Source: Coptis chinensis (Eukaryota; Streptophyta; Magnoliopsida; Ranunculales; Ranunculaceae). From it: a DNA stretch of 64,000 nucleotides. The DNA lies in the NCBI GenBank assembly GCA_015680905.1, contig CM027381.1:72343501-72407500 (forward strand). Direction: 5' to 3'. Under the pieces are notes generated by a model, which did not search any database, was not told the DNA's origin, and was given only the letters and a program-made list of their open reading frames with translations. Positions 14,630 through 60,340 of the stretch are shown here, in pieces. Positions within the stretch are counted from its first letter, which is position 1. Each line of letters opens with the position of its first letter. The position numbers and the translations under genes were made by a program.

Positions 14630-15204
14630 CTGTAGACATTACAATTATAGTTAATACAACTTCTTCCTATGGGAATACAATAACATATCTGAATACAGTG
14701 CTGAACTGAATCACAGTCTATTAGGTCTTAAAGGTGTATAGCGTATATCATGGAATATGGAGCGTACATAGTGTCTTTCCCAACCTATATAGTGTCATGA
14801 ACAACTTCATAAGTTTAATTTCTAAGCTCTCTTTCATATTGAATATAGTGTCTGTCACAACTTATATAGCCTCGCGAAGAACTTGTATTATGTATGGTAT
14901 AACTTTATAAGTTACATATCTAAGCTGTATTTCAAACCGCAATTCTTATATAATGGAAGACTCAGCTTATATATGGTCGTGCAGTTCTTACAACAAATTC
15001 CTATGAAAATACAATAACATATCTTAATATAGTGTTCAACCGAATCAGTCTATTAGATCTATTAGGTCTATTAGGTCTACAGCGTATATAGTGTTGTTCA
15101 CAGTGTATACAGTGTCTCGAATAACTTGATCAATTACATATCTAAGCTGCCTATATGACATGCATTTCAAATAGGAACATAAGTTGACCGTCTTGCAACA
15201 CACT
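14630..15204 (-). repeat. Transposase intron packed with TATATAGTGTC motifs
   Basis: Bounded by donor GAG|GTGAGTGTG and acceptor TGTCTACAG on the minus strand, which joins EKALEE to IQGSFG in frame. Inside are CCTATATAGTGTCATGAACA, GTACATAGTGTCTTTCC, GTATATAGTGTTGTTC and similar copies, plus two near-identical stretches around AATACAATAACATATCT (14,678 and 15,010), indicating internal duplication. Confidence 0.75.
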
Positions 15205-17406: not shown

Positions 17407-17495
17407 CTGCAAACAACAAAGTGCTCTACTTTAGTACCATTTTAGTCACCCTTTTTAACGCAAAACAATGTAGGAGTCCAAAATAACACACTTAC

Positions 17496-18642
17496 CGCCA
17501 CAAGTACCAAGTATTAGGGATGCTTCAACAAACTGATTTTGAAGCGTCTCACCTACAACAATGTTAACTGCAGAAGAATTTAGTCAATTGCACAAGTCAA
17601 TTTGATATACATGTAAATATTATACAATATCACATCCTCCAAGTGATTTCATAAATCCAATACATGGTAAGCGCCACCTTAGAAAGTGTCATCTTATTTA
17701 CCTCTCATTCAGTCATAATAATTTAGAACACCATAATAACACACTTACCACCATAAGTGTCAGGTACACGGGATGCTTCGAAAAATTGAGTTTCAAGTGT
17801 CTCACCTCCAACAATGGTAGCTGCACAAGAATTTAGTCAATTGCACAAGTCAATTTGATATACATGTAAATATTATACAATATCACATCATCCAAGTGAT
17901 TTCATAAATCCAATACACAGTAAGCGACACCTTAGAAAGTGTCCTCTTATTTACCTCTCATTCAGTCACAATAATTTAGAACACCATAATAACACACTTA
18001 CCACCATAAGTGTCAGGTACACGGGATGCTTCGAAAAATTGAGTTTCGAGTGTCTCACCTCCAACAATGCTAGATGCACAAGAATTTAGTCAATTGTATA
18101 GGTCCGTTTACTAAACATGTCAGTATTTTACCATCGCAACCGACAAACCACATACACTGTTTTTGAAAGACCTTATATAGCAATTCCGTAAATCAAATAC
18201 ACTGTCTTAGATAGTTTCCTCGATCTTCTTTACCCGTCCTACAGTTACGATAATTTAGAAATCCACAATAACACTCTTACATCCATAAGTGTCAGGTACA
18301 CATGATGCTTCCAAAAACTGAGTTTCTAGCGTCTCACCCCCAACAATGCTAACTGCACAAGAATTTAGGTAATTGCACAGGTCCATTTACTAAACATGCC
18401 AGTATTTTACCATTACAACCGACAAACCACAGAAACATTATTTTTGAAAGACCTTATATAGTGATTCCTTAAATCAAATATACTGTCTGCGAGTCCCTAT
18501 ATAATGTCCTCGATCCTTTTTACCCGTCCTACAGTTATGATAACTTAGAAAACCGCAATAACACACTTACCACCATAAGTGTCAGGTACATGGGATGCTT
18601 CGCTTATCTGAGTTCGAGGCGAATCACCTCCAATAATACTAA
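17496..18642 (-). repeat. Five tandem copies of a 72-nt phase-1 exon with its intron
   Basis: Exons lie at 17,496..17,567, 17,749..17,820, 18,002..18,073, 18,281..18,352 and 18,571..18,642, all exactly 72 nt and each followed by a GTAAG donor. They start with two codon bases and end with one, so any number can be spliced without a frame change. Each encodes 24 aa of the type SIVGGETLETQFFEASRVPD plus TYG. Copies 1, 2, 4 and 5 keep a GCAG acceptor; the middle copy has GCAT in its place. The genomic period is 253 bp for the first steps and 279 to 290 bp for the last two. The peptide is not a domain I recognise. Confidence 0.85.
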
Positions 18643-18730
18643 CTGCAAAACAATTTAGTTATTCCAAGGCAAAAATTTAGTTTGAGGTCTTCCTGTGCTT
18701 ACCTATTTCACAGTTCTGTAAAACACTTAC

Positions 18731-22286: not shown

Positions 22287-23198
22287 CTAAACTGTGGACG
22301 TTTGGTGGTGGTTTAGAGGTGTCGGAGAAGAAGCTTGTTGAGCCTGCTCCTCATTTTCTCCTCTTTCCAAATCAATCTCAATAGCTGCTGCTGAACTACA
22401 ACAACTCATTGGAGTAGAAGGCTGTTTTCTATCTCTACTCAATATCCTCTTAAATGATCTAATCCTTCCACCTGGTGATTTAAACACTTGACTTCCTAGT
22501 GGTGATCCTTCTTCTAAATTCTTGAAACTCTCATTTCTTCTTGGTACCTCTATTGACACCACCCCCGCTAGCTCAAACGCCTGTCTTCGTGACCCGACAG
22601 ACGTTGAAGAAGAAGAAGTGCCCTCTTGCGCACATGATGAACAAAGTATAGATGAAGGAGTTTCTGGCTGTTGTGTATTAGGAGAGTGGACAACGATTTC
22701 TAGAGGGGTTTGCCGAGTGTTTTCTGGTTCTGGAATAGTCACAGGTGATCTACAAAGTGGACAAGTAGAATGAGAATGAAACCACATGTCAATACAACCA
22801 ATATGAAAACTATGATTACATTTCGGTAGTAAACGACCCTTTTCGTTTTCTTCGAATTCAGATAAACACACTGCGCATTCAAGAGCATCGTGTTCGTGAC
22901 TATTTGAGGTGTATATAAAGGTAGGAAGATATTTGAGAAGTGAAGCATCGAGGCCTTGAGATATGGTAGTGGTGGTTGAAGGTGTAGTGAAGATTATATG
23001 TGCTCGATTTCGTCTTCGGTTGAGAACTTGGCGTCGACGAGTCCGGGCTAGATACCATCGAGCATAAATATGAAGGCAGATTATGAGAAGAACAACTGTG
23101 AAAAGGATAACTATTGCACTTAGCATGATTTTGCCGCTCAAGGCGTATTTTTCTTGCGGATAGTACTGGCGGGATTCATTGCCCCCGTTGGTGCTCAT
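22287..23198 (-). CDS. ATL-family RING-H2 E3 ubiquitin ligase
   Basis: 303 residues, intact, apparently single-exon as usual for ATL genes. Residues about 23..45 ([20 protein letters not shown]) form the single N-terminal membrane segment, followed by a basic stretch. [11 protein letters not shown] (82..92) is the GLD motif that defines ATLs. RING-H2 ligands are C108, C111, C127, H129, H132, C135, C146 and C149, with the ATL-typical Pro125 before the third Cys and Trp139 ([15 protein letters not shown]). The RING recruits E2 enzymes for ubiquitin transfer at a membrane; the C-terminal 150 residues are Ser-rich and probably disordered. The finger resembles ATL2-type members, often pathogen- or elicitor-induced, but the function of this copy is not determined. 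ATG at 23,196..23,198 follows a long A-rich and CT-rich leader. Confidence 0.95.
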
Positions 23199-23384
23199 TT
23201 TTTTTTTCTTGGGGAGAGAAAGAGAGAGAGAGGTGTTTTGATGGGGAATGGCGTGTGAAGTAGAGAAGGGGGGTTTTACTTCGAAGATACTGAATGGGAA
23301 AGTTCTTCGACGTTGAATTTGAAATGAATCTTGTTTTTGTGCTAGTTGTTGTTGACTGGTAGAAGTACTGTCATTGGGAAATGG
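23199..23384 (-). promoter_or_regulatory. Presumed 5' leader of the ATL gene with CT-rich tract
   Basis: On the minus strand a CT repeat (complement of GAGAGAAAGAGAGAGAGAG at 23,214..23,233) and a run of A lie just upstream of the ATG. Pyrimidine-rich leaders are common in plant mRNAs. No clear TATA box was fixed. Confidence 0.35.
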
Positions 23385-24010
23385 GAATATAACAATTTTT
23401 TTCTCTTATACCAAAGTTACCAACTGGGAATATAACCAGATATTAAGTGGAATGAGATCACCTGTGCCACCAACTTGCTGTCAATTTATCTCTGCAGTGT
23501 TTTCTGCAATATAACACTGAGCATATTACAAAATATCCCGATATATCGCGATATTTGGAAATATCTATCCATATTTCAGAAAAATATATTTAAATATCAC
23601 GATATGTTTAGAGATATATACGATTGCAAATATCAATTATATTTCGATAATATTTGCGATATTTGTGATATTTTGTGATATTTTGTGATATTTGGCGATA
23701 TTTTGTATATATAACAATTTTATTTAATATTTATCATTATATTTAAAATAAATATAAATAATGTATCATGATATATTAAGAAATATCTACAATATTCACG
23801 ATATTTGTCGATATTTTAGATATATCCACGATATTTGCATGTGAAACAATGTCAAATATCCCCAAAGAGAGGGATATATCCACGATACATATCCAGAAAT
23901 TGAATATCGATAAATACCCATATCCTGATATTTTGTACTATGACACTGAGTGCATCTGTGCAATTTTTCTCTGTTCTAATTTTCAAGGACTAATAAAAGA
24001 GTAAATTGGA
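23385..24010. repeat. Copy A of a duplicated upstream segment (copy B at 24,573..24,760)
   Basis: Shared blocks in the same order include AACAATTTTTTTCNNTTATACCAA, GGAATGAGRTCACCTGTGCC and TGCAATTTT, followed by similar downstream sequence. Copy A is split by the element at 23,522..23,942; copy B lacks it. The two copies flank the MITE at 24,078..24,563. Confidence 0.7.
23522..23942. mobile_element. hAT-like non-autonomous element, 421 bp, GATATT-rich
   Basis: Perfect 8-bp target-site duplication ACACTGAG at 23,514..23,521 and 23,943..23,950. Termini CATATTACAAAATATC and GATATTTTGTACTATG are inverted repeats with one mismatch in 16. The interior is built of GATATTTGTGATATT-type words. No ORF. 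An 8-bp duplication and a CA start fit the hAT superfamily. Confidence 0.88.
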
Positions 24011-26177: not shown

Positions 26178-29100
26178 CTAATTTTCGAACCTGTATTACG
26201 AACGGGTGTCGTTATATTAAATTATTCTAAAAAATATTAACAATTATGTAGAGCTACGAGATATATATGAAAATTATATTAATCACTCATTCAAATTTCT
26301 TGCACCACTCTCAATAAAAAGAAAACACCAAACCTTGATAACATTATATTCCCTCTACAAATAATACAACTATGTTTCGAGGTTAGTTCACTGCATTTGC
26401 ATCAAGTTTCCGATTTTCTGTTAATTATTTATTGAGGTTAGTTCAATGTAGTTATTGCATTTAGTTTCCGATTTCCCATTAATTATTCTTTGAGGTTAGT
26501 TCAATGGGGTTGCATCAAGTTTCGATTTCCGTTAATTAATTATTATTTGAGGTTAATTCACTGCAGTTGCATCAAGTTTATGATTTCTTGTTAGTTATTC
26601 ATTAAGATTAATTTAGTGCGGTTGCATCTAGTTTTTGATGTTTCGTTAATTAGTTTTTTAGATTAGTTCATTGCATTTCCATCCAGGTTCCAATTTCTCA
26701 TTAATTACTCTTTCAGATCAATTCAATACATCTGCATTCAGTTTCTAATTTCCAGTTAATTATTTTTAGAGGTTAGTTCGATGTTCAATGCATTTGCATC
26801 TAGTTTCAAATTTCTTGTTATTTATGCTTGAAGTTAGTTCGACCAGTTACACCTGATTTTTGATTTCTTGTTAACTATCTTTTGAAGTTATTTCAATGCA
26901 TTTGTATCAAGTTTTTGAGGTTATTTCAATGCATTTGTATCAAGTTTCTGATTTCCCGTTAAATATTCCTCAAGATATTGCGTCCAATTTATGATTTACC
27001 ATTAGTCAATCTCTGATTTTAGCTTAATGCAGTTGCATCCAGTTTTTTATTTTTCATTAATTATTCTTTGAGGTTAGCTCAATGTAGTTGTATCCAATTT
27101 TCAATTTCTAGTTAATTGCTCTTTAAGGTTAGTTCAATGCATTTGCATCAAGTTTTTGATTTTCCGTTAATTATTTTTTTAGGTTAGTTCAATGTAGTGG
27201 CATCAAAATTTATGATTTCCCATTAATTATTTATTGAGATTAGTTAAGAGCAGTTACATCTATTTTTTGATGTTTCATTAATTAGTCTTTGAGATTAGTT
27301 CATTGCATTTGCATGCAATTTGTGACTTCCCGTTAATAACTCTTTGAGGTTAGTTCAATATATTTGCATCTAGTTTTTTATTATTTATGCTTTGAGGTTA
27401 GTTCGATGCAATTACATCAAGTTTTTTATTTTTCGTTAACTATTCTGTGAGGTTATTTCAATGCATTTGCATTTAGTTTATGATTTCCCACCAATTATTC
27501 TATTAGGTTAGTTCAACGCAGTTGCATTCGATTTTTGATTTTCTGATAATTATTTTTTGATATTAGTTCAATGCATTTGCATCTAGTTTCCGATTTTTCG
27601 TTAATTATTATTTGAAGTTTGTTTGATGTATTTGCATACTGTTTCCGATTTCCCGTTAAATATTTTTCAAGGATTTGCATCCAATTTCTAATTTCTCGTT
27701 AGTTATTATCTGACGTTAGTTTAATACAGTTACATCCAGTTTCTAATTTTTAGTTAATTACTTTTTGAGTATGGTTTATTGTATTTACATAAAGTTTCCG
27801 ATTTCTTGTTAATTACTCTTTGAGCTGAATTCAATGTATTTGAATTCAGTTTTTTATTTTATTTTAATTATCCAATGGGGTGTGTAATACCAACTTCAAA
27901 CAGGACATAAAAATAAATTATGTTTCATTTACTATGTGGGATCATAAAAAATTATCCAGTTCCCAATTTCCGTTAAGTATTCTTTAAATTATACATGACT
28001 CACTATGTATGATCTTCAAAAATTATCTACCAACGTGTGATGTTATATTAATTATTCTGAAAAATATTTGCAACTATATATGCATAACTATTATATATAA
28101 ATATTATATTGATAACTCATCCAAATTTTTTATAACGTGAAAACCCCATTATCCATTAAAAAAAAAATTCACCCTTGATAAAACCCTTCAACTTCATTTT
28201 GTTGTTTAATAATAACACTATTTTACCTAATAAGGCGAAGTTCATATTGAAACTATTTGAATAGCAATGCGTTCCCAATCATACGAAAAGAGATAAGATA
28301 AACACTATTTTAAATGCAAAACTATACTTATCGAAACGTTCCCACAATATATAACACAACTATGGTTTGAGATTAGTTCAATATATTTGCATCCAGTTTT
28401 TTATTTTCAATTCCGTTATTTTTTTTTTTTATGTTAGTTCAATGCAGTTGCATCTAGTTTCCGATTTCCCATTATTTATTTATTGAGGTTAGTTCAATGC
28501 ATTTACATCTAATTTCTAATTTCCTATTAATTGTTTTTCGAAGTTAGTTCAATGCATTTGCATCCAATTTTTGATTTTTCGTTAATTATTTTTTGAGATT
28601 ATTTTAATGCATTTGCATCCAGTTTTTTTATTTCTCATTTATTATTCGATAAGGTTGCATTTGCATCTAGTTTATGATTTCCCGTTAATTATTGTTTGAG
28701 GTTAGTTCAATGAATTTGCATACAGTTTTCGATTTTCCATTAATTATTTCTCGATGTTAGTTTAATGCATTTGCATCCAGTTTATTTTTTGAGATTAGTT
28801 CAATGCAATTGTATCCGGTTTCTGATTTCCCATTAATTATTATTTAAGATTAGTTATACGCATTTGCATCCTATTCCCAATTTATAGTTAATTTTTCTTT
28901 TATGTTAGTTCGATGCAGTTGCATCCAATTTCCGATTTCCTATTAATTTAATCATTGAGGGTTAGTTCAATGTATTTCCAACCAGTTTTCAATTTCCCGA
29001 CATTTTTTTTTATGTTAATTCGATGTATTTGCATCCAAGTTTTGATTTTTCGTTAATTATTTTTTAAGGTTAGTTTAATGCAGTTGTATCCATAGTCTGA

Positions 29101-29314
29101 TTTCTCATTAATTACGTTTTAAGATTAGTTTAATATTTGCATATGCATCAAGTTTTCGATTTTAAATATTTAAAGGTTATTATTTGCATTAGTTTTCGAT
29201 AATTGTTTTGCATTAGTTTTGTAGTATTTATATTTTAATTGTTTATTTGAGCTTAGTTTCATGTAGTATTATATATATTTTAAAATATTTATCATTATTA
29301 GTTTGTCATTATTT

Positions 29315-29348
<34 letters not shown>

Positions 29349-30212
29349 AGCTTGCATTAAAATGAATGCAAAATTTTCTATTACATATTTTGTGATGTTA
29401 TTTTTTGTATAATTTAATTTTTCATTGGAATTTGTTTTGGTTTGGTATATAATTTATTTTATATATTATAAACTTGGAAATTACATTATAGTGTTGATTT
29501 TTTTTTTTATAAATTTATAAATTTAATTGGAACATGTTGTAATTAATGTCGTTTTTTATATCCTTAACGATGACTAAATGTCTAAATCTCAAAGTGAATG
29601 GTGCATTAAATCTATCCAAGTTTATTTGTTTAGGCCCATATAGACATATAGTGCATACAATACAATTTTATTTGTTGTCCGCTTAGTTTTGGGTGTACAC
29701 TGTTACTTATTTTATGATTAGTTGACTTTTATTTTTTCTTTTTTGTCCTAGTCACATGTGAGGTTAACAAATGTAGAAAGTAATTGTTCAGGCAACTAAA
29801 TTCATTTTTTTCTTCGTTATTTCATTATCTTTTTCTAGAAAGAAACTTTGTTATGTTAAATTTCACCTAATATTAGTGTGAAAACTATTCTTTGTGGCGT
29901 ATTAGGAAAATCGTTTTCGGTGGAAACTATTGTTTTTAACAATTTAGTTTTTTTGTCTCCTATTTTTTCTTAATTAGCTATAGTATTTAGGAAAAATTGA
30001 AGAATCTATGAAACTCTAGATGAGATTGTTTCTTTTTTTTTTATATCATATTTTTTGATAATTAGTAATAGAGTTTAGAAAAAACTGGAGTCTATGTGAT
30101 TGCCAAATATTAGTATCATACTTTTTCGTAATTAGCCAAAGAGTTTTACAAATATTGGAGACTCTATGAATCCTCAAAAAATAGAGCCAAGAAAGTACAA
30201 CTATAATATATA
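26178..30212 (-). mobile_element. Helitron copy 1 of a head-to-tail trio
   Basis: Minus orientation. The 3' end (low coordinate) has the hairpin ACCCGT..ACAGGT, then TCGAAAATTAG, with the terminal CTRR changed to TTAG. The 5' end at 30,212 lacks the last 8 bp (TCCTTAGA) present in the other copies. No Rep/helicase coding is seen; the body is a roughly 55-bp satellite plus unique AT-rich DNA. Confidence 0.75.
26377..29215. repeat. ~55-bp satellite in Helitron copy 1
   Basis: Units of the type TTAGTTCAATGCATTTGCAT, CCAGTTTCCGATTTCCCG, TTAATTATTCTTTGAGG. Arrays lie at about 26,377..27,880 and 28,368..29,215, separated by AT-rich unique DNA. Units diverge from each other by roughly a tenth to a quarter of positions by eye. 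TTTGCAT is almost invariant. No reading frame is maintained. Beyond the array to 30,212 the DNA is AT-rich and non-coding, with a TA/TG microsatellite near 29,318..29,348. Confidence 0.85.
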
Positions 30213-33159
30213 CTAGTTTTCGAACCCGTTCTACAAACGGGTGCCGTTATATTAAATTATTTTAAAAAATATTAGCAATTATGCAGAGCTATGAGATATA
30301 TATGAAAATTATATTAATCATTCATTCAAATTTCTTGCACCACTCTTAATAAAAAGAAAATACCAAATCTTGATAAAACTTATCGATTTTTTTTAATAAT
30401 TGAAGTTTGATAAGAATGTGCGTTTAATGTGGCGAAGATGATATTGAAACTACTTGAATAGCAAGACACTCTCAATCATAATAAAAAGAATTATGATAAA
30501 TACTATTTAAAATGCAAACTTATACTTGTCGAGACATTATATTCCTTTTACAAATAATACAACTATGTTTCGAGGTTAGTTCAATGCATTTACATCAAGT
30601 TTCCGATTTTTTGTTAATTATTCATTGATGTTAGTTCAATATAGTTATTGCATCTAGTTTCCGATTTCCCATTAATTATTCTTTGATGTTAGTTCAATGC
30701 AGTTGCACCAAGTTTTCGATTTTCCGTTAATTATTCTTTGAGGTTAATTCACTGCAGTTACATCAAGTTTATGATTTTTTGTTAGTTATTCATTAAGGTT
30801 AATTTAGTGTGGTTGCATCCAGTTTTCGATGTTTCGTTAATTAGTTTTTGAGATTAGTTCATTGCATTTCCATCCAGGTTCCAATTTCTCATTAATTACT
30901 CTTTGAGGTTAGTTCAATACATCGCGTGATCCAGGTTTTTGATTTCCGTTAATTATTTTTTAGAGGTTAGTTCGATGTTCAATGCATTTGCATCTAGTTT
31001 CAAATTTCTTGTTATTTATGCTTTGAAGTTAGTTCGATGTAGTTACATCCTTTAAGGTTATTTCAATGCATTTGTATCAATTTTTGAGGTTATTTCAATG
31101 CATTTGTATCAAGTTTCTGATTTTTATTAAATATTCCTCAAGATATTGCATCCAATTTCTGATTTACCATTAGTTAATATATGATTTTAGTTTAATGCGA
31201 GTTGCATCCGGTTTCTAATTTTTGTTAATTATTCTTTGAGGTTAGTTCAATGTAGTTGCATCAAATTTTCGATTTCTAGTTAATTGCTCTTTGAGGTTAG
31301 TTCAATATATTTGCATCAAGTTTCCGATTTCCCGTTAATTATTTTTTTAGGTTAGTTCAATGTAGTTGCATCAAAATTTATGATTTCCCATTAATTATTC
31401 ATTAAGATTAGTTCAGAGCAGTTGCATCTATTTTTCAATATTTCGTTAATTAGTCTTTGATATTAGTTCATTGCATTTGCATACAGTTTCTGACTTCCCT
31501 TTAATAACTATTTGAGGTTAGTTTAATATACTTGCATCTAGTTTTTTTTATTATTTATGTTTTGAGGTTAATTCGATACAATTACATCCAGTTTCTGATT
31601 TTTCACTAACTATTCTGTGAGGTTATTTCAATGCATTTGCATTTAGTTTCTGATTTCTCACAAATTATTTTATTAGATTAGTTCAACGCAGTTGCATTCG
31701 ATTTTTGATTTTCTGTTAATTATTTTTTATATTAGTTCAATGCATTTGCATCCAGTTTTCGATTTTCCGTTAATTATTATTTGAAGTTTGTTTGATGTAT
31801 TTGCATACTGTTTCCAATTTTCCGTTAAATATTTTTCAAGGATTTGCATCCAATTTCTAATTTCTCGTTAATTATTATCTGACGTTAGTTTAATGCAGTT
31901 ACATTCAGTTTCCAATTTTTAGTTAATTACTTTTTGAGTCTGGTTTATTGTATTTGCATAAAGTTTCCGATTTCATATTAATTACTCTTTGAGCTGAATT
32001 CAATGTATTTGAATTCAGTTTCTGGTTTTCTTTTAATTATCCAATGTGGTGTGTAATACCAACTTCAAATAGGACATAAAAATAAATTATGTTTCATTTA
32101 CTATGTGGGATCATAAAAATTATCTAGGTTTCGATTTTCCGTTAATTATTCTTTAAATTATACATGACTCACTATGTAGGATCTTCAAAGATTATCTACA
32201 AACGTGTGATGTTATATTAATTATTCTGAAAAATATTTGCACCTATATATGTAGAACTATTATATATGAATATCATATTGATAACTCGTCCAAATTTCTT
32301 ATAACGCGAAAACCTCACTATCTATAAAAAAAAAACTCACCCTTGATAAAACCCTTCAACTTCATTTTGTTGTTTAATAATAGAAGTTTGATTGAAGTTT
32401 TGTGAGATTGCCTAATAAGGCGAAGTTCATATTGAAACTACTTGAATAGTAATTATACAAAAAAAGATAAGATTCCCAAACTATATTTATCGAGACATTC
32501 CCACAATATATAACACAACTATGTTTTGAGATTAGTTCAATGCATTTGCATCCAGTTTTTGATTTTCAATTCCGTTTTGTTTTTTTTTTAATGTTAGTTT
32601 AATGCAGTTGCATCTAGTTTCCGATTTCCCGTTATTTATTTTTTGAGGTTAGTTTAATGCATTTACATCCAATTTCCAATTTCCTATTAATTGTTCTTCG
32701 AGGTCAGTTCAATGCATTTGCATTCAATTTCTGATTTCCCGTTAATTATTCTTTGAGATTATTTCAATGCATTTGCATCCAGTTTTTTTTATTTCTTGTT
32801 TATTATTCAATAAGGTTGCATTTGCATTTAGTTTTCGATTTCCTAGTTAATTATTGTTTGAGGTTAGTTCAATGAATTTGCATACAATTTTCGATTTTCC
32901 ATTAATTATTTCTTGATGTTAGTTCAATTGCATTTGCATCAAATTTATTTTTTGAGATTAGTTCAATGCAGTTGTATCCGATTTCTGATTTCCGATTAAT
33001 TATTATTTAAGATTAGTTCTATGCATTTGCATCCTATTCCCGATTTATAATTTTTATTTGATGTTAGTTCAATGCAGTTGCATCCAATTTTTGATTTCCC
33101 ATTAATTTAATCATTGAGGGCTAGTTCAATGCATTTCCAACCAGTTTTCGATTTCCCGA

Positions 33160-33195
<36 letters not shown>

Positions 33196-34336
33196 TTAAT
33201 TCGATGTATTTGCATCCAAATTTTGATTTCCCGTTAATTATTCTTTGATATTAGTTTAATGCAGTTGTATCCATAGTCTGATTTCCCATTAATTACGTTT
33301 TAAGATTAGTTTAATGTTTGCATTTGCATCAAGTTTCCGATTTTCAGTTAAATATTATTTGAAGTTAGTTCGATGCATTTGCATCCAATTTTCGGTTTCT
33401 CATTAATTGTTCTTTCAGCTTAGTTTCATGTAGTATTATATATATTTTAAAATATTTGTCATTATTGGTTTGCCGTTATTTTTTATTTTTTTTTATATAC
33501 ATTTGTTTTGCATTAGAATGAATGCAAAATATTTTATATTATATGTTTTGTGATTTATTATATGTAGGATGGGTAATTTATTTTATATATTATAAACTTG
33601 GAAATTACATTATAGTGTTGATTTTTTTTTTTATAAATTCATAAATTTAATTGGAATATGTCATAATTACTGTGATTTTTGATATCCTTAACGATGACTA
33701 AATGTCTAAATCCCAAAGTGGATGGTGCATTAAATCTATCCAAGTTTATTTGTTTAGGCCCATATAGACATATAGTGCATACAATACAATTTTATTTGTT
33801 GTCCGCTTAGTTTTGGGTGTACACTGTTACTTATTTTATGATTAGTTGACTTTTAATTTTTCTTTTTTGTCCCAGTCACATGTGAGGTTAACAAATGTAG
33901 AAAGTAATTATTCAGGCAACTCAATTCATTTTTTCCTACGTTATTTCATTGTATTTTTCTAGAAAGAAACTTTGTTATGTTAAACTTCACCTAATATTAG
34001 TGTGAAAACTATTTTTGTGGTTTATTAGGAAAATCGTTTTCGGTGGAAACTATTGTTTTTAGTAATTTAGTTTTTTTGTCTCCTATTTTTTCATAATTAG
34101 CTATAGTGTTTAGAAAAAATTGAAGAATCTATGAAACTCTATATGAGATTATTTGCTTTTTTATATTATATTTTTTTGTAATTAGTAATAGAGTTTAGAA
34201 AAAACTGGAGTCTACGTGCCAAATATTAGTCTTCTACTTTTTCGTAATTAGCCAAAGAGTTTTACAAATACTGGAGACTCTGTGAATGCTCAGAAAATAG
34301 AGCCAAGAAGGTACAACTATAATATATATCTAAGGA
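30213..34336 (-). mobile_element. Helitron copy 2 of a head-to-tail trio
   Basis: 4124 bp, minus orientation. 3' end: hairpin ACCCGTT-TGTAG-AACGGGT, then TCGAAAA and CTAG at 30,213..30,216. 5' end TCCTTAGATATATATTATAG at 34,336. It aligns with copy 1 throughout and contains no ORF of note. Its 5' end directly abuts the 3' end of copy 3. Confidence 0.82.
30570..33420. repeat. ~55-bp satellite in Helitron copy 2
   Basis: Same unit and same unit order as in copy 1, so the array was duplicated with the element and not amplified separately. Arrays at about 30,570..32,050 and 32,525..33,420. Includes a run of about 35 T near 33,160..33,194. Confidence 0.85.
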
Positions 34337-36239
34337 TTAGCTTTCGAACCCGTCCTACGAACGGGTGTCATTATATTAAATTATTCTAAAAAATATTAGC
34401 AATTATTCATAGCTATGAGATATAAAAATTATATTAATCACTTGTTTAAATTTCTTGCACCATTCTATATCAAAAGAAAGCACCAAATCTTGGTAAAACC
34501 CATCGATTTATTTTTGTTTTTATGTTTAATAATAGAAGTTTGATTGAAATTTTGTGAGAATGTTCAATGTGGGGAAGATGATATTGAAGCTACTTAAATA
34601 GCAAGACATTCCCAATCATAATAAAATAATTATAATAAACACTATTTAAAATGTAAAACTATACTTGTCGATATATTATATTCTTCCTATATATAATACA
34701 ACTATGTTTCGAGGTTAGTTCAATACATTTGCATAAAGTTTCAAATTTTACGTTAATTATTTTTTTAGGCTAGTTCAATGTATGTAGTTGGATATAGTTT
34801 CCGATTTTTCGTTAATTATTCTTTGAGGTTAATTCAATGTAGTTGTATCAAGTTTTTGATTTTCCGTTAATTATTATTTGAGGTTAGTTTAGTGCAGTTG
34901 CACCAAATTTACGATTTCTCGTTAGTTATTCATTAAAGTTAATTCAGTGCAGTTCCATCTAGTTTTCAATGTTTCGTTAATAACTCTTTGAGATTAGTTA
35001 ATTGCATTTGCATCAAGGTTCAAATTTTTCGTTAATTACTCTTTGAGGTTAGTTTAATACATCTGCATCCAGTTTCTGATTTCCCGTTAATTATTTTTTG
35101 AAGTTAGTTCGCATCTAGCTTCCAATCAATTTCCAGTTATTTATGCTTTGAGGGTAGTTCGATGTAGTTACATCCGGTTTTCGATTTCTAGTTAACTATT
35201 CTTTAAGGTTATTTCAATGCATTTGCATCCAGTTTCTGATTTTTTGTTAAATATTCATCAAGGATATTGCATCCAATTTCTGATTTTCCGGCCTGTTAGT
35301 TAATATATTATTTTAGTTTAATGCAGCTACATCCAGTTTTTGATTTTTCGTTAATTATTCTTTGAGGTTAGTTCAATGTAGTTGCATCCAATTTCTGATT
35401 TTCTATTAATTGTTTTTTGAGGTTAGTTTAATGTATTTGCAGCAAATTTTCGATTTCCCGTTAATTATTTTTTGAGGTTTGTTTAATGCAGTTGCATCAA
35501 ATTTATGATTTCCCGTTAATTATTCATTGAGGTTAGTTCAGTGTATTTGTATCCATTTTTTTTTTTATGTTTCTATATTTGTTAATTAGTCTTTAGATTA
35601 GTTCATTACATTTGCATCCAGTTTTCGATTTTTTATTAATAACTCTTTGAGGTTAGTTCAATACATCTGCATCTAGTTTATGATTACTAGCAAAAAAACA
35701 CGTGCTCTGCACATGAATGAAATATAAAACTCATTTAAGAGTATGTGAACACAATTCAAAAGAGATAACCAAAATGTAGATAACCAAAATGTAACTAAGA
35801 TGTTGAGGTGCTCTACGGAGGATTGCTACTGGAATCACAGAAATGTCGAGTCTTTCATATGCCAGAGTCTAGAATCTGTGTCAAGTTTTAGTTTTCAATT
35901 GGGTACCAAGGTCTTTTGTAGGGGAGGCCCACGATCTTGCTGCCTGCTCAAGGGTGGCACAGATATAGGTAATCTTCCTAGATGTATTGCAGAGTTTGAT
36001 GTGGAACTCATAGTTATTTACTGGAAAACATATCCATTATTGCAAAAAAATTCACAATTCTTGGATGAATATATGTAAGCATACTTACTGTTGAGATTAG
36101 CATGACATACTAAAACAACATGGAATTGATAGGATATACCATAATAATAGGTATGTCTTCTAATAGTTCTTTAGGTGGTTTCTGGTTGCGTATACCAATA
36201 TAAACTTGTTGGACTTATAATGTGCAACCAAATGAAAAA

Positions 36240-36478
36240 TCACATGCTACTTCATCCCTAATACATCCAATATCAATGATGGATGCAGCACACATGCTAT
36301 TTCATCCCTGATACATTACATCCTACCAATGATGAACGCAGCCACATGCTATTTCATCCCTGATACATCCTACCAATGATGAACGCAGCCACATGCTATT
36401 TCATCCCTGATACATCCTACCAATGATGAACGCAGCCACATGTTATTTCATCCCTGATGCATGCTATTTTATCGATGT
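36240..36478. repeat. 47-bp tandem repeat inside the 6.8-kb Helitron
   Basis: GCAGCCACATGCTATTTCAT units start at 36,338, 36,385 and 36,432, exactly 47 bp apart, with degenerate partial copies on both sides. Internal tandem repeats are common in Helitrons. The frame at 35,800..36,078 (+) next to it has no recognisable similarity. Confidence 0.85.
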
Positions 36479-38582
36479 ATAATTTAACGTACCTACTGAA
36501 TCAATTAACAAAATGCACCACTTCTACATTTCTTACCATGGAGGCACCACACCTACAAGTTGAACACCAAAATCATGCAATGTAGCTCATTCTATACACT
36601 TGTCTTATTTACATAAAACATTGTATTTACGTAAAGCCTCATTATATGTTCAGCGATAAAGAATCTGATAGGGCCGAATCTCGATAAGCCAACAGAATGG
36701 AACTCATTTAACTTCAATAAAGGTGAAACAACCACAAAGAAAATATTGTTTCAAGTATAAAGGTAAAGTTGTCTTTATGATAAATGCCTCAAAAACAAAA
36801 GCTCTATAGACCTTGCCGTAAATCAACCCGTTGGCTTACCACCAATGAGACCATGTCCATTACATTTTGACGAAACTCTTACGTAAGGTGTCGAGTTGAC
36901 TATGGTATCTTGAATAAGCTGAGTTTCCAAAGATATAGAATTCTTGAACTAAGTTTTCCTAAACCACCACCAAAACAAATGAAACAAAGATTATCCATTG
37001 AAGGATTTAAGTTAAGGGGATCGACATAAATACTTATTTCTCTCATATAATATATTTGTTTTACCGCAAGGTGATTGATTGATAAGAACCCGTACAAAGG
37101 AATCATATTCTTCCCAGGCCAAGATCTGCTCATAAGTATCTATCACCATGGCCTTGGATCATTGTAGCAAGCTCCTTATAAGATTCCCATTGATGGCCTT
37201 CAATCTTTAAGAGATAAAGTTCACATATGAGATTCTGATGTAAAAGACTACACAAAAGGGTTTGAAAGCAAACAAATCACCTTAATTCATGCATTTGTTT
37301 TTCCACTTTCTGCATGCTAGGGTTAGGGGGTGGTCTTACTCTTACAACAGACTTGCTTGGCTTGCAACTACATATTCCTACTACACAACCCCGTATGCCA
37401 ACCTACAAGTCCTGCAAGCCAAACAGATCAATATACACACCAATTAAAAGGTGCAAATCCTATTACCCCTAGCAAAATATATCTCGTTAAGTTCTGCAAA
37501 CATTATGACAATGAAATCAAATAAGATCCATGAATTGAAACATTAACCACTCTAACAACCTCCAATCACAGCAACAACAACTGCAAGTACAAACTCAACT
37601 AATGAGTCAATGTATAGTGTAGGTTATAAATATAATTAAACCCCATCAGGGTCAGAGTTTAAAGTAGTGGCCCACAATCACAGAAAGAGTATCTTCATAG
37701 GCCGCCATTCCATAGATAGGTTTTGAGTATGGACATATGGATTAGAAAACACATACTTGGCAATTAATCTAGTATCTGCTTCTACTATGTTGGAGCCCAT
37801 CTAATCAAACCCATGGTCTTTTTAGTTAAATACATTTAAAAATAAAATGTCTTCTAACAAAACACTGAATTATAAGTCTAGACAAACAGTTTTTTGGATG
37901 CATTGGCATAGATGCCCTTTTCTCATGAAGTCCAATAAGTTTATATACTGATGAAAACAGCAACTCCAACTTGGCACCAAAAGCAGTACTGTAGGCTCAA
38001 TTTAGTTCCTTGTCCTTGCTTGTGGAAAGGTTGCGTGAGGCCGGTATGACCACAACCTTATTACAATTTAAAAACAATTAACTTTATTGTTTGCTCAAAA
38101 TTTTAGACTAAAATCCTTTTAAATGAGATGGGAAGGGTAGTTACCACGGTCTGTTTGTAGTAGGAGTTCAGGTATCCTTCCAGTCACCCAATCAACTATT
38201 ATTTGTTAACATCTATAATATATTACAAAAGGGTATTGAATTAGTAGGAGTTGGATTGTTCTTTCAGTTATGCCTTCAACAATTACCCTAATATGCCTAT
38301 GGCCAACAACCCTTCATCTCTGCTACTTTACATTAATAGCACTTTATCGTAAACCTAAGCTGACCTTAGTTGTTTTATCTTAAAAAACAAAGAATGAATT
38401 ATCATTAGAATCAGAGTACGTACCAACCGAAAAATAGAAAAGCAAGAGAGCAGATGGAAACCTCAACTAAATAGTATAACCAATTTGAGAAGTAATCATC
38501 ATTGAAGGATATGATTGTGTACGATATAAATTACTAATATGTAGCACATTTATGTAATGAATGGCATGCAAAATACTCGTAC

Positions 38583-38706
38583 CTGAGCATCGGACGCAAT
38601 GAATATGATCCAACCTTTGCCTGATGAATTTCAAGGTTCCTACGGTTTCTCGATCATTAGAGTGAACCCACACACTTAGTACTTTACCGGTAGAAACTTG
38701 CAGCAA
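38583..38706 (-). other. Exon-like open segment, unidentified
   Basis: On the minus strand TTTTAG precedes and GTACGAG follows a 124-nt segment reading VSTGKVLSVWVHSNDRETVG and TLKFIRQRLDHIHCV. The words LSVW and the spacing loosely recall eIF4E-like cap-binding proteins, but this is too short to assign. It could be a second captured host exon. The rest of 36,480..40,650 shows no supported gene. Confidence 0.3.
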
Positions 38707-40659
38707 CTAAAACAATGGAGAGCTTTAACCTTGTGCATCAACGGATTATAGCTTTCAAATATATAACAAAAACCCATAATTGAATCCCAAGAATTTAGAG
38801 AAGTAGAGTAAAAAGAAGACAGAAGTGAATAGTTTATGAATAAACGTTAAATAAAAATTTCGAACAATTTGAATTGAACTTAATGAAATAAAGAAGCCAG
38901 ATCTATACAACATGTATTATATGGCTATATCTAAACCAATATTCATTTTCAAAGGGGATAAGGTGAAATGTAAGCAGAATGGGGTAAAATCATCAGGCAA
39001 CAAAGCATTTGTGACATTCATATATATACCTGAAGTAGTTGGTTTTTTGCTAATCCCTATTGTAGCAATACAATATCTAAGTCATCTACAAGGCATCTCG
39101 GTCCTTGTTTTAGAACCACTGAGATGACCAAATTCATATATTAAGCTGAGTAGCTGACACAAAAAAAAATGCCAGTCCCAATATGACAATGTCTCATTTG
39201 TGGTAAATTAAGGGACTGCAAAATTAGGGAAGTTTATGGACTTAAAAACGAAATGTGCTTGTTTATTGAGGCCTGAAACTCACAATTGATATTCATGAAA
39301 CCGAAGGGGACTTAAGGCTAAAATGAGAATTCCCAGATTGCAAGTAGATTGAGCCGTTTCATCGATTGAAGCAAGTAAACTTACTTGGCATATATGTCCG
39401 TAGAGATTTTAACCGGCTTCAATAGACACATAGAGTCTAAACCATGACTCGAGCCTTATCCCTCACATCAAAAGTCCACCACATGGCAGAGCGTAGTAAG
39501 AGTGTAGCCAGGCAACCCCGCCACCCACGAGTAGTTGAACTTCTTTGTTGGATGCATATCTCTGCAGAATGATGGAATAAATAAGACATATGGTGAGACA
39601 ACCAAAATAACTCGGGGAAAGTACCATTTGGTTAACGCTACATCCCACTATATTGTAAGAATGCATCCCATGATGTTTTTACACCTCCTTTCTTTTTGCC
39701 AATTTCAAATTTTTGTTCTGCCACTTTAGCCACATTCCCTCATTCCCTATTAACAGTACACCAAGCTGAAAGCTAAGGTCAACAACGTCGACTGACATTA
39801 GAAACATGAAACAAAAAAGTAAAAAATTAACTAATAATGTAATAAATAAGACAATAGAACTGATTGACCGGCAGTGGAATTGATGCCTTTTGCAACTTTC
39901 CAAGGAATCCAAAGTTGTTTTATCCTCCTTCAAAAAATTAATTTAGTGTCTCAATGACCCGAGTAAGCAAAATTCAGCTTAAACTAAAAGATGGAAAAAC
40001 TTGCAAAGACGCATTTTTACTGTACCAGTTCAGATACAACCACCACCATTAAACCACACCATCAACAATCAAATAGGGAACACCTTTTTGTGAGAGAGAA
40101 TGGAGAGTAGTGGCGATCGAATTCGTTAAAACAATTTGAAAGTGATGACTGGATACATTTCTGAATTGTTTTTTGAGATTGAGAAAATAATGAAACAAAT
40201 TCAACGAATTATGAAGAATAAATAGAAGGCAAGAAGTTGATGATTACTTTATTATCATCTTCATTTGAAAAGCATCTCCCACTATTCTCAGCCAATGAAT
40301 CTGGAATCTCAGAATCTTATGATCAAAGGGAAAACTAATTAAAGGTACTAAAATGACAACAATCAGAATGTGATCAATGGTCAAGAGTTGATTAAAACCA
40401 CAAACCACAAAACAATTCAAATCACTGAAACATCAAAACCACAAACCAATTCAAAACAAAAATCATTCAAAATCGATTTAACAAAATTTAAAGTAGAAAA
40501 TCGAATAAATATCAAAAAAGCAAACAATTGCATATTAGATATGAGAAAATGCGAAGGTACTTACTTGTACATCAAACTGGAATCAAATTGAAGTCAAGAA
40601 GGATTGGAATTCGAGGAACACTAACATAGTACTAACTTCAGGAATAAGACCTCAACTAT

Positions 40660-41396
40660 CTAATTCATGCACCTGATCGACTTATTGATGAACTCTTCAT
40701 GATTTCCAAAGCATCTCCACCCTCGACATAATGGTTTCTCTTCTTCTTCATGCCACATGATGGAGCACTTAACTGGAATGGCCACAGGAAGTTGTTTGCT
40801 TCCCCTGAAATGGGGACCAACAGTCAGTATCTCATGAATCAGATCTTCCCGTGGATTATCCCATGTTTTCCAAGTCCCTGTCAAAACATCAAGATCGAGA
40901 AAGCCAAACAGAGAAGCACTGAACATATTGACAAACCAAAAATATATTACCTGTTCAACAATAACATTGTCTGTCAAAGCAATTTGCTGCTTGTTCAACT
41001 TTCCATACTCCCTCTTGTAAATCAATTCCCTCACGCTCTTTAGATTAGGGTAACTGTAATACAGAAAAAATTTGAATGAGCACCAGACACTTAAAGATTT
41101 TTGTCTTGTTCATTCTAATTGAATTGTGTACAATTGAAATACAAGCTCTCTCTAACCTCTCTGGTGCATATAGGAACAAAACTTACCCAAAAGTCACATA
41201 AGGCTCAACCCTGCACATCATGTTAACGGTTGCTTTGTTCACCTTGAGAAAGACTCCATTGAATAGCTGCAAAAGGAATTACATATTAAAATCCATGCAT
41301 CACGATATGCCATATAAAAATTTGTGACTTTTTGTACCTGTCTCAGGACGTAGGAGTTGCAATATACTTTTGGTCTTTGGGTCCATTGCATTGATA
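40660..41396 (-). pseudogene. Captured fragment of ribosomal protein L7 (uL30) gene, four exons
   Basis: Exon 1 41,338..41,396 (INAMDPKTKSILQLLR; an extra C shifts LRLRQ). Exon 2 41,187..41,266 ([27 protein letters not shown]). Exon 3 40,951..41,053 (YPNLKSVRELIYKREYGKLN, KQQIALTDNVIVEQ). Exon 4 40,660..40,877 begins as GLGKHG-like sequence, then [12 protein letters not shown], and a one-base insertion throws the tail out of frame, where NNFLWPFQL and [13 protein letters not shown] can still be read. GT/AG introns are kept, so genomic DNA was captured and not an mRNA copy. uL30 is a large-subunit ribosomal protein; here the N-terminal third is missing and several frameshifts rule out function. 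Confidence 0.9.
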
Positions 41397-42500
41397 CTTG
41401 TGGAGACATCACATGCACCGTAATAAGAAACTTAAAAGACATTGAATGGACATAATAGGAAACTGAAAGACTGTAAATTCCCTCCACCTTAGAATGCACA
41501 TGCCAATAACAGGCTGGGCTTAAAGGGTCTAGTTCAAAACTTGAACTGAGCCAGAGAAACACGTAGCTGAGACTTCGATGTTGAATCTTGCGTCACTCTG
41601 AGGACAACAGTTTTTTGTTTCAAATACCATCAATTTAGAATGTTATAATAACATGTTGCTACAAGTTTACATAGATAACTAAGAGGTAAAATATCATACG
41701 GTTTCTGCAACCTTCAGGGGACCAAACGCTCAAGAAGAATTGAGACCAAATCATACCTGAAAATTTTCAATCCAATCAATAACTGAAATCAGACAAATAG
41801 AAAGGAGTTCATTTCTAGGAAAGTATCGACCCCTTTGTGCAGATCTCGTTAATGTCAAGAGATGTAGTCTTAGCAGCCAAACGAACTAAATTTTGTCTCT
41901 TTATAGAAAATATGTATTTCTGTTGGCGTTCAGGTCCTGTGGTATTAATATTAGAACAAAGTGACTCAATTGGCTATATCAATTGGGAGAGATAGATGTA
42001 GAAGCCCTATATATTAGTCGAGAAGGAGAAGTGGGGTTTTGCAGAAAATGCAGACCGAATAGTTTTCCTCCGAGAATTGGGATTGTTTTGAAGATTTGGA
42101 ATTTTTTTTGGAAACAAAAGAGATAGGAGAGAAGGGAGAAGAGACGGGAGAGAAGGGAAATGAATCGGTTCGTATTCTCTGATTAAATGAACATCTTATT
42201 AAACAACCCAATTATTACTAATAATTAATGCGTACAATTGAGAGTGGCGTGGATTTGGTTTTCTAATATATTCCCACATGAAAAGACTGATGGGCCCTAT
42301 TTAAAGGTGTTAAGCAATTGTTTTATTTAAGGACAATATTGGTACTGAAAATTTATAAACACATAAAAAGACAAAGTAGTCCTCATTAATAAATAGGTAG
42401 GCATATGATTTTATTATTCATCAAGGGTATTATGCGTCAGAAAAAGTCCCGGATGAATTTAAGAGGCCACGATCATTATAGGCTATACTAGTAGTAGAGA
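41397..42500. other. 5' part of the 6.8-kb Helitron, no supported gene
   Basis: Holds a 65-codon Ser/Phe-rich minus frame at 42,014..42,211 of no recognisable family. Missing RPL7 upstream exons were sought here on the minus strand and not found. Confidence 0.45.
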
Positions 42501-45500
42501 TTTATGCTCTGAGATTTTAATTAGTTCGATGCAATTTCATCCGGTTTCTGATTTCTCGTTAACTATTCATTGAGGTTATTTTAATGCATTTGCACGTAGT
42601 TTATGATTTCCCGTCAATTATTCTATGAGGTTAGTTCAATGCAGTTACATTTGGTTTTTGATTTATTGTTAATTATATTTTGAGGTTAGTTCAATGCATT
42701 TGCATCTAGTTTCTGATTCATCGTTAATTATTATTTAAGGTTTGTTTGATGCATTTTTGCATATCGTTTCCGATTTACCGTTAAATATTTGTCAAGAATT
42801 TACATCTAATTTCTAATTTCTCATTAGTTATTCTCTGACGTTAGTTTAATATAGTTGCATCCAGTTTCTGATTTCTAGTATTTTACTTTTTGAGTTTAGT
42901 TTATTGCATTTGCATAAAGTTTTTGATTTCCCGTTAATTACTCTTTGAGCTTAGTTAAATATATTTGAATCCAGTTTTCGATTTCTTTTTAATTATCCTA
43001 TGTGGTGTGTAATACCAACTTTCTACTTATCCATCTGTAGTGTCCTTGCAAACATGACATAAAAATAAATTATGCTTGATTTACTATATTGGATCATCAA
43101 AGATTATCTAGTTTCCGATTTTTCGTTAATTATTCTTTAAATTATATATCTGACTCACTATGTAGGATCTTCAAAGATTATCTACGAACGGGTCCTGTCA
43201 TATTAATTATTCTAAAAAATATATGCAACTATATATGCATAATTATTATATACAGATATTATATTGCTCACTCATCCAAATTTTTTATAACATGAAAACC
43301 TCACGTACTCTCTATTAAAAAAAAATAACTCACCATTGATAAAACCCTTCAACTTCATTTGTTGTTTAATAATAGAAGTTTGATTGAAGTTTTGTGAAAT
43401 TGTCTAATAAGATGAAGTTCATATTGAAGCTACTTGAATAGCAAGGTGTTCCTAATTATACAAAAAAAGATAAGATAAACACCGTTTTAAATGCAAAACT
43501 ATACTTATCGAGACATTCCCACAACATATAACACAACTATATTTTGAGATTAGTTCAATGCATTTACATCAAGTTTTTGATTTTCTGTTATTTATTTTTT
43601 GAGGTTAGTTCAATGCAGTTGCATCTAGTTTCCGATTTCTTGTTAATTATTATTTGTTGTAGTTTAATGCATTTGCATCCAATTCCCAATTTCATGCTAA
43701 TTATTTTTCGAGCTCAGTTCAATCCATTTGCATCCAGTTTCCGATTTCCCGTTAATCATTTTTTGAGATTAGTTTAATACATTTGCATCTGGCCAGTTTC
43801 CAATTTCTTGTTTATTATTCAATGAGGTTGTATTTGCATCTAGTTTCTGATTTTCTGTTAATTATTGTTTGAGGTTAGTTCAATGAATTTGCATCCAATT
43901 TCCGATTTTCCGTTAATTATTTCTTGAGGTTAGTTCAATGCATTTGCATCAAATTTATTTTTTGAAATTAGTTCAGTGTAGTTGCATCCGGTTTTCGATT
44001 TCCCGTTAATTATTTGTAAAGATTAGTTTCACGCATTTGCATCATGTTTCCAATTTATAGTTATTTTTTTAGGCTAGTTCAATACAGTTTCATCCAGTTT
44101 TCGATTTCCCGGTAATTTAATCTCTGAGGGTTAGTTCAATGCATTTGCATTCAGTTTCCGATTTCCCGACAATCATTTGTTGGTGTTAGTTTGATGTATT
44201 TGCATTCAAGTATTGATTTCCCATTAATTATTATTTGAAGTTAGTTGAATGCAGTTGTATCAATATTCTTATTGTCCATTAATTAATTTTTAAGATTAGT
44301 TTAATGCTTGCATGTGCATCCAATTTCCGATTTTCCTTTAAATATTATTTGAGATTAGTTCGATGCATTTACATCTAGTTTTCTATTTCTCGTTAATTGT
44401 TCTTTGATGTTAGTTTCATGCATTATTATATATATTTGAAAATATTTTTGTTTTTTTTTTTTTTTTTTTTTTTTTTTTGTATAATTTAATTTTTCATATG
44501 TAATTTGTTTTGGTTTGGTTTGGTATATAATTTATTTAAGCCCAACGTTTACTTTAACTAAATCAATAGTTATATAATTTATTTAAGCCAACGTCCGTTT
44601 TAACTGAATCTCGTTATTCCGCTAAAATTGGAAATTATAAAATTTATAAATTTAATTAGAATATGTCGTAATTATTGTGGCCTATGGTTTTTGAAATTCT
44701 TAACTATGACTAAATTTTACACCTCAAATTGATTCAACTTTATTTGTTAGGTCCATATATATAGTGCATACAATACAATTTTATTTGTTTTTGGTGTACA
44801 CTATTACTTATTTTTTGATTAGTTTACTTATTTTTTCCTTTTTTTCCAGTCACATTTGTGGTTAACAAATGCATAAAATAAATGTTCAAGCAACTTAATT
44901 CATTTTTTCATTTGTTCTTTCGTAGTTTTATTATCAATTTCTAGAAAGAAATTTTGTTATGTTAAACTTCACCTGAGATTAGTGTAGAAACTATTTTTTG
45001 TGGCGTAAGGGTTTTAAGAAAATTGTTTTTGGTTGAAAATATTGTTTTTGGTTGAAAATATTGTTTTTTGTAATTTAGTTATTTTTTTAGGTTAGTTTAA
45101 TACAGTTGCATCCAGTTTTCAATTTTTCGATAATTTAATCTCTAAGGGTTAAATCACCGCATTTGCATCCAGTTTTCGATTTTCTGACAATTATTTGTTG
45201 GTATTAGTTTGATGTATTTGCATACAAATTTTGATTTCCTATTAATTATTTTTTGAGGTTAGTTTAATGCAGTTGTATCAATATTCTGATTGTCCATTAA
45301 TTAATTTTTAAGATTAGTTTATTAGTTTAATGCTTGCATGTGCATCTAATTTCTGATTTCCTGTTAAATATAATTTGAGGTTAGTTCGATGCATTTGTAT
45401 CTAGTTTTCTGTTTCTCGTTAATTGTTTTTTGACGTTAGTTTCCTGTTAAATATATATTTGAAAATATTTGTTATTATTGTTTTTTTTTTCAATTGCTAT

Positions 45501-46420
45501 TATATATTTTGTGATGTTATTTTTTGTATAATTTAATTTTCCACATGTAATTTGTTTTGTTTTGGTTTGGTTTGATATATAATTTATTTAAGCCCAACGT
45601 CCGTTTTAACTGAATCTCGTTATTTCGTTAAAATTGAAAATTATAAAATTCATAAATTTAATTAGAATATGTCATAATTATTGTGGCCTGTGGTTTTTGA
45701 AATCCTTAACTATAACTAAATTTTACACCTCAAATTGATTCAACTTTATTTGTTATGCCCATATATATAGTGCATACAGAGTACAATTTTATTTGTTTTT
45801 GGTGTACACTATTACTTATTTTATGATTAGTTTACTTTTTTTTCCCTTTTTCCCAGTCACATGTATGGTTAACAAATGCATAAAGTAAATGTTCAAGCAA
45901 CTCAATTCATTTTTTCCTTTGTTCTTTCATAGTTTTATTATCATTTTATAGAAGAAAAAACTTTGTTATGTTAAACTTCGTCTGATATTAGTGTGGAAAC
46001 TATTCTTTGTGGCGTAAGAGTTTTAGGAAAACCGTTTTTGGTTGAAAATATTGTTTTTTATAATTTATTTTTTTCCCTCCGTAATTAGCTATATTGTTTA
46101 GGAAAAGTTAGACACTCTGTGAAACTCTAGATGAGATTGTTTATTTATTTATATTTTACTTTTTCATAATTAGTAATAGAGTTTAGAAAAAATTGGAGTC
46201 TTTGGAGTGCTCCAAAAAATAGATTGGTGAGAGTATAACTATAATATATATCTAAAGATTTGGATTTTTTTTTTTCGTAATTAGTATTAGAGTTTAGAAA
46301 AAGTTGGAGACTCTGTGAAGCCTTGAAAAATAGAGCCAAGAGGGTATAACTATAATATATATCTAAGGATGACACCTTTGTGGTGGTACAATTTTACACT
46401 CTCTATTGGAGATGTCCTAA

Positions 46421-59600: not shown

Positions 59601-60340
59601 ATTGGTTTTACAAATATATTATAGGACAATTAATATGCAAACAAAACCCTAACTATAAATTTCTAGATAGGCATGTACGTTGACGTTTACGATAAACAAG
59701 CCTGATTATACTAGAATTGAAACTCCTCTGACAGAAGAGCCGAGGAGTGGAAGAAGGAGTACCTGAATGCCTCATTGCTACGTGTATGAATAGCGTCTTG
59801 TATACGCAATCTCAGTGTATTGAAGAAGTTAGAAACACCGAATAACTTGAAGAAATGGAAGTTTGGACTGACCTGTGAAAATCGGGCTGCTACACAAAAG
59901 GGCGCTGGTCGCGCTCCGAAATGGCCTTGGTAGGGCTTGGGTCGCGCTCCGACCTTGCTCGAGGAACATGCACTTAGGCGCGGGTCGCACTCGAAATTAG
60001 CCTTAGGTGGGCGCGGGTCGCACTCAACCTATGCCTGGGTAGGGGCGCAGTCGCTTCGAGGGTAAACCGGATCGGGGTTATATGGTGGTGAAGGTCCACT
60101 GAGCGAAGCGAGGAAGCGCTGAGGTCTTTGAAAAATGCTGAAGTGAGAAGGAAAAAGAAGGAAAACTTGGGAGTGAAAAGTGAGAGATGAAAGTGAGAGA
60201 TGTGAGTTGTGTGTGGAGAATTAATGGAGTTTATATAAGTTTTTAGTTTCCAAAACGAATCGGGAAGTTGCCAAAAAGTTTTAAAGCAATTGCCGGAAAC
60301 AAAAATTTCTAAAACCGAAAACGGAAACAACCCATATTCT
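59601..60340 (-). repeat. Leader of module copy 1 with GC-rich minisatellite
   Basis: From about 59,900 to 60,060 the + strand repeats GGGCGCGGGTCGCGCTC-type words at roughly 30- to 40-bp spacing, strongly GC-rich in an AT-rich context. Flanking leader words (CTCCTCTGACAGAAGAG, TACGCAATCTCAGTGTATTG) are shared with module copy 2. Confidence 0.75.

Follow-up and report, generated by a model that had tools for sequence, protein, structure and literature searches.

In the 64,000-bp stretch of Coptis chinensis DNA analyzed here (C5:72343501-72407500 of a 935.6-Mb genome; "the window"), three Helitrons of one family, c3, c2, and c1, lie head to tail in that order on the minus strand with zero bases between neighbors (Table 1). 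This chain of non-autonomous Helitrons probably arose by a series of canonical A^T insertions, each within a resident copy or beside one, combined with one transposition of a two-copy unit.

Structure of the array

A first-pass annotation had described three Helitrons joined 3' end directly to 5' end, with the 5' end of c1 8 bp short, and both points were borne out. The minus strand reads ...ACGGGTTCGAAAGCTAA/TCCTTAGATATATATTATAG at 34336/34337 and ...ACGGGTTCGAAAACTAG/TATATATTATAG at 30212/30213 (slashes mark joints), where c1 is without TCCTTAGA. When up to 3 mismatches were allowed, the 31-bp 3' terminus matched the window three times (26178, 30213, and 34337; expected, 0.00), as did the 5' 20-mer (34336, 46369, and, with one change, 46258; expected, 0.02). 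The annotation had also given each end its own diverged hairpin. This holds for c2 (CTAG) and c3 (CTAA), which have 7-bp stems before CTRR with folding z values of -2.82 and -1.64, respectively (for c3, 15 of 200 shuffles fold equally well). It does not hold for c1, in which the stem is lost (z, +0.31) and the 3' end reads ATTAG instead of CTRR. The hairpins of c2 and c3 have the Helitron position about 10 to 12 nt before the 3' end, and both copies have the Helitron termini (5' TC and 3' CTRR), neither of which is intact in c1.

The copies are 9% to >20% apart. Identity between c1 and c2 is 87.9% over 3.9 kb, and that between c2 and c3 is 78.6%, 81.6%, and 71.9% in three blocks, the last being the first 1.3 kb of c3. 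The first 110 bp of c3 are up to 99.0% like copies elsewhere versus 82.8% like c2; by this comparison, c3 is of a different subfamily from c2. Unrelated DNA starts at both outer edges of the array, and the 4.1-kb period stops there instead of running on into non-Helitron DNA, which the annotation had named as grounds for abandoning its proposal. The 12.0-kb length of c3 is due to a 6.8-kb Helitron of a different family that it contains. Besides a ribosomal protein gene fragment in that nested element, no open reading frame (ORF) of at least 120 amino acids overlaps 24 to 49 kb of the window. Because no transposase ORF was seen there, c1, c2, and c3 look like non-autonomous copies.

Table 1. 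Coordinates of the array, its termini, and its internal features in the window
Feature	Position	Strand	Basis or remarks
Helitron copy c3	34337..46369	-	5' end 46369 (A/TCCTTAG), 3' end 34337 (hairpin-GCTAA); interrupted by nested Helitron
Helitron copy c2	30213..34336	-	Full TC...CTAG, 4,124 bp; between c3 and c1
Helitron copy c1	26178..30212	-	4,035 bp; begins at T9 of 5' end; 3' end mutated to TTAG
Junction c3/c2	34336..34337	-	CTAA/TCCTTAGA
Junction c2/c1	30212..30213	-	CTAG/TATATATT, 8 bp short; one of 18 exact genome cases in this register
c3 3' terminus with hairpin	34337..34367	-	Terminus search, folding
c2 3' terminus with hairpin	30213..30243	-	Terminus search, folding
c1 3' terminus, broken stem	26178..26208	-	Terminus search, folding
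c3 outer 5' terminus	46350..46369	-	5' 20-mer match
Second c3 5' terminus, 111 bp inside	46239..46258	-	5' 20-mer with one change
1.0-kb internal duplication in c3	44058..46058	-	44058-45049 and 45076-46058; 84.0% by BLAST, 89.8% with gaps left out
Decayed internal 3' end in c2	32178..32254	-	Limits approximate; the c1 and c3 counterparts end near 28009 and 43164, respectively
55-bp minisatellite array in c2	30572..32040	.	Equivalents in c1 and c3
Nested Helitron, other family	35687..42500	-	A/TCTCTACTACTA...GCTAG/T, 7-bp stem, 6,814 bp
60S ribosomal protein L7 (uL30) gene fragment	40660..41109	-	ORF inside nested Helitron

The family and its insertion sites

The exact 3' 16-mer of the family has 756 genome matches with CTAG and 31 with CTAA; the exact 5' 20-mer has 1,096, many of them internal repeats of the 5' end. 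Inspection of the C1 lists by eye gave about 20 same-strand pairs of 5' and 3' ends spaced 3.9 to 5.2 kb apart. Solitary copies with other ends would have counted against the first-pass annotation, and solitary copies with the family ends do exist: at C1:9599994-9604120, both ends were read, as ATA/TCCTTAG (L051) and CTAG/TCTTAATA (L084). In a sample of 40 3' ends (places 2 to 41 of the 16-mer list), the following base was T in 39 and G in 1. The first 54 listed 5' 20-mer places were read in 40 stretches, and the base before the 42 first-in-stretch matches, some of which are internal repeats, was A in 31, G in 7, and T in 4. These flanking bases and the empty sites described below agree with the A/T insertion without target duplication that is characteristic of Helitrons.

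A TATATAT(AT)TATA 5'-like sequence adjoins 5 of the 40 sampled 3' ends and, in 4 of those, belongs to a sister 5' end with CAATTGAGG; C1:20956, left outside the sample, is also a joint of this kind. A sister 5' end, TCTTTATATATATATTATAG then CTACCCTCTTCAATTGAGG (L021, L031, L046, L047, L059, and L108), has the same TA-rich start and is also hit by newcomers. Three 5' ends (L034, L037, and L044) have common upstream sequence (TTATTCCGATA/TC), which would fit insertion at a single site of another repeat or copying along with that repeat.

Joints fall mainly at A^T steps of resident ends

Exact head-to-tail joints number 5 in the full register (T1), 18 at T9 (A8^T9, 8 bp inside the next copy), and 3 at T11 (A10^T11) across the genome. 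All three registers are A^T steps of the resident; T4, which is not, has no exact joint in the genome. Random use of A^T sites would give about 0.004 per register, a figure that takes the A^T frequency from the window only and counts internal 5' repeats as ends. Any CTAG at T9 occurs 66 times, 48 of them without the family's exact 10-mer; among those 48, the left side was read for at least three, of which L045 and L012 are other Helitron-like ends and L017 is a mutated family end. A junction query gave at least 42 matches, from 40 of 2,350 candidates scored, and 25 of the 42 were covered by 20 stretches of about 10 kb plus the window. The 24 joints read in that sample comprised 8 full T1 joints, 5 T9 joints, 4 T9 joints with an extra TA, and 7 others. 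At the L020 joint, one of these 7, 12 bp of other DNA lies between the ends. No pair among the 276 possible had both sides at least 92% alike, and in a whole-arm comparison of junction loci the 55-bp arrays aligned mutually at many offsets.

A newcomer that lands at A8^T9 should leave the first eight bases of the resident in front of it. This octamer followed by a complete 5' end was found at 4 places in the genome, and in 4 of 4 the remainder of the resident lies 3.8 to 5.7 kb downstream on the same strand. The family 3' end meets that remainder exactly at T9 in two cases, with an extra TA and a CTAA end in another, and in a T11-like register in the fourth; the octamer on C2 has a single change, and the base in front of it is C instead of A. 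The same newcomer-in-resident pattern occurs within the second 5' repeat of the resident at L025. One and the same composite, a resident 5' piece plus a newcomer, is present at both L063 and L113, an indication that copying extended to the composite itself. Helitron-like 3' ends of other families also adjoin at T1, T9, and T11, with hairpins that are clear in L117 and L012 and fair in L009, and at L129 such an end occupies the same spot in the opposite orientation. At L120 (C8:18381500-18382750), two T9 joints enclose a family unit of 967 bp; the two 3' regions there differ from each other chiefly in the hairpin.

One of the two explanations offered in the first-pass annotation was that copies insert repeatedly at the A-T of an end already present; such insertion is demonstrated at several of these other loci and accounts for both joints in the window. 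Judged from these sequences, the main source of the joints is insertion at A^T steps within the ends of residents.

A paralogous pair on C8

At C8:71.06 Mb (L014), a c3-like copy (Y) is joined to a c1-like copy (Z) without c2 between them, as GATAA/TATATATT, and the flanks of the pair are unrelated to those of the C5 array. Both halves are equally diverged from their C5 counterparts, with Kimura two-parameter distances (K2P) of 0.044 to 0.049. In trees, c3 and Y are sisters, as are c1 and Z, and c2 is the next relative of c1 plus Z among 25 sequences. Z shares with c1 both the 8-bp loss and a 158-bp deletion, the joint of which is found only in c1 and Z. On this comparison, the Y/Z joint is the empty site for c2, and it accounts for the short c1. 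The idea that c1 is short because of an 8-bp deletion was given up, as L014 has the same short end directly after GATAA. The equal divergence, the sister relations, and the unrelated flanks make it probable that the pair transposed as a single unit, with terminator read-through at the 3' end of c3.

Alternative histories

Several points weigh against the proposed history. Another insertion (X) covers the left edge of the C8 pair. The window c3/c2 joint matches L009 at 94.7%/91.6%, the weaker side being slightly better than in the match to L014 (97.1%/90.5%); L013 and L015 are 97.0% and 90.8% alike on their two sides, and other joints also have a c3-like copy before a c1/c2-like one, which means that combinations of this kind may have more than one origin. 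Over about 350 bp, three other c3-type 3' ends have K2P values of 0.044 to 0.047 to c3 versus 0.032 for Y. The upstream end could be read at five further loci with an exact T9 joint: the octamer was present in two (C4 and C2) and missing in three (L112 [X], L121, and L027, the last with a 5' end that is itself altered). In those three, the 8-bp repeat would have to have collapsed, or some other route to have operated. No family 5' end was seen in 6 of the 13 upstream stretches read; L009, L015, and L016, among the 7 other joints of the 24, have 5' ends cut at non-A^T consensus steps; and L036 and L045 have weak hairpins at their other-family ends. Tandem duplication also occurs locally: two successive 3' regions of L120 are 97.1% alike (133/137), as if locally amplified.

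The strong hotspot character of the site, the recurrence of c3-like before c1/c2-like copies at L009 and elsewhere, and the other c3-type 3' ends nearly as near to c3 as Y is would all suit two arrays built separately, with a c3-type copy landing twice on a c1-type copy and no transposition of a pair. We consider this unlikely, if worth keeping in view, given the equal divergence of the halves, the deletion joint confined to c1 and Z, and the sister relations in both pairs. Ordinary tandem duplication of a 4.1-kb unit, by unequal crossing over or end joining, would draw on the place of c2 next to c1 plus Z in the trees, the 1.0-kb internal duplication in c3, the apparent amplification at L120, and the octamer-less T9 loci; we think it improbable. 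Unequal crossing over inside the unit was rejected from informative sites, which put c1 and c2 together in most windows of comparison, with no switch at the joints. Three such windows favor c2 with c3 and one favors c1 with c3, and there c1 is rearranged or the copies are close.

The other explanation in the first-pass annotation, rolling-circle read-through, would make the array a concatemer: a single event in which replication repeatedly passed the 3' end and the trimer was inserted head to tail. The exact CTRR/TC abutment at c3/c2 is what it calls for, and circles joined precisely head to tail are reported as Helraiser intermediates (PMC5876387). However, because the model predicts full TC junctions between near-identical copies, the data do not support it: exact joints 8 bp short outnumber full ones (18 versus 5), c3 is unlike c1 and c2 over its whole length and has closer relatives elsewhere, other-family Helitrons occupy the same positions, and the C8 paralogue is without c2. 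We regard a concatemer as highly improbable. As the origin of the joints, read-through is not supported; it gains support as the probable means by which the c3/c1 pair moved as a unit.

Other features of the array and its surroundings

The nested Helitron in c3 has a hairpin by folding (z, -3.16), and its flanks, CATAAA/TAATCATAAACTAG, match c1, c2, and Y, which are its empty sites. The L7 (uL30) fragment that it carries matched solved structures in phmmer in two stretches (E, 3.7e-21); its ORF had no Pfam match at 0.001. The inner 5' terminus of c3 is possibly the fossil of an earlier self-insertion, and its CCAAA/TCYTTAG arrangement is found again elsewhere in the genome. Each unit has, some 2 kb ahead of its real 3' end, an older one that has decayed, with no hairpin remaining by folding in c2 or c1.

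Elsewhere in the window, remnants of a Mutator-like element (MULE) neighborhood lie at 3255-7254 (plus strand) and 13478-14638 (minus strand), with a Ulp1-type peptidase and a MULE transposase domain with a SWIM finger; a DUF1985 match in this neighborhood falls under its curated cutoff. An ORF for a RING-H2 finger protein (22287-23405, minus strand) lies beside the array. At 1-727 and 17461-18661 there are tandem repeats, their periods being 146 bp and about 253 to 279 bp. Within 57916-63108, two stretches each recur at a distance of about 3 kb (identities, 89.0% and 91.3%), and the ORFs there at 58806-59618 and 61297-62250 had no Pfam match.

Discussion

The history that we favor, insertion at A^T steps plus movement of one pair, would run as follows. 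A c3-type copy would have inserted at A8^T9 in the 5' end of a c1-type copy, an event of the same kind as those shown at other loci, to give c3/c1 with the joint CTAA/TATATATT. The pair would then have been copied from the TC of c3, through the 3' end of c3, to the 3' end of c1, giving rise to the loci at C5 and C8:71.06 Mb. At C5, as the paralogue comparison shows, c2 inserted at the A^T of the joint CTAA^TATATATT to yield c3/c2/c1, the C8 pair remaining as the empty site. The empty sites in c1, c2, and Y show that the other-family Helitron with the L7 fragment inserted at an A^T within c3.

Tandem Helitrons and self-insertion are already in print, and the array is of a known kind. In the maize r1 region, adjacent Helitrons lie head to tail (Du et al. 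2008, PMC2267711), with a 3' CTAG directly on a 5' TC, and one reading given there is a second insertion at an AT made of host A and resident T. That report describes two dissimilar elements at one locus, whereas the present case has three same-family copies, joint counts for the whole genome, orphan octamers, and a paralogue that serves as the empty site. In Fusarium oxysporum, FoHelis that are composites with several 5' termini are described (PMC5148889); self-insertion is proposed there, followed by remobilization of the part bounded by the outer 5' terminus and the first 3' terminus, and a Metarhizium case of three in tandem is given the same two readings as ours. There, self-insertion was inferred from termini, whereas here orphaned resident fragments and matching remainders flank the newcomer. 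Tandem arrays with head-to-tail junctions in plants and bats are cited in PMC5876387 as support for rolling-circle transposition; in our case, insertion explains the joints better. A review states that Helitrons tend to insert near other Helitrons (PMC12477314). In the literature searched, which left most subscription papers outside its coverage, no title or abstract opening dealt with transposition of a Helitron pair. The present contribution lies in the register test, the orphaned resident fragments, the count at the hotspot, and a pair that has an empty-site paralogue.

Register, together with an orphaned resident fragment, separates insertion joints from concatemers, and this test could be applied to any genome rich in Helitrons. 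In the C5/C8 pair there is a candidate for a single transposition past an inner terminator, and both halves of the pair can be used as clocks. It is quite possible, if short of probable, that the family itself and other Helitrons land preferentially at the family 5' end, TCYTTAGA^TATATATTATAG, that chains grow on residents, and that pairs are then mobilized as units past the inner 3' terminator to leave composites that carry additional 5' ends along with decayed inner 3' ends, a self-feeding route by which dispersed copies would become tandem. Taken together, the joint registers and the C5/C8 pair suggest how dispersed Helitrons can become tandem repeats.
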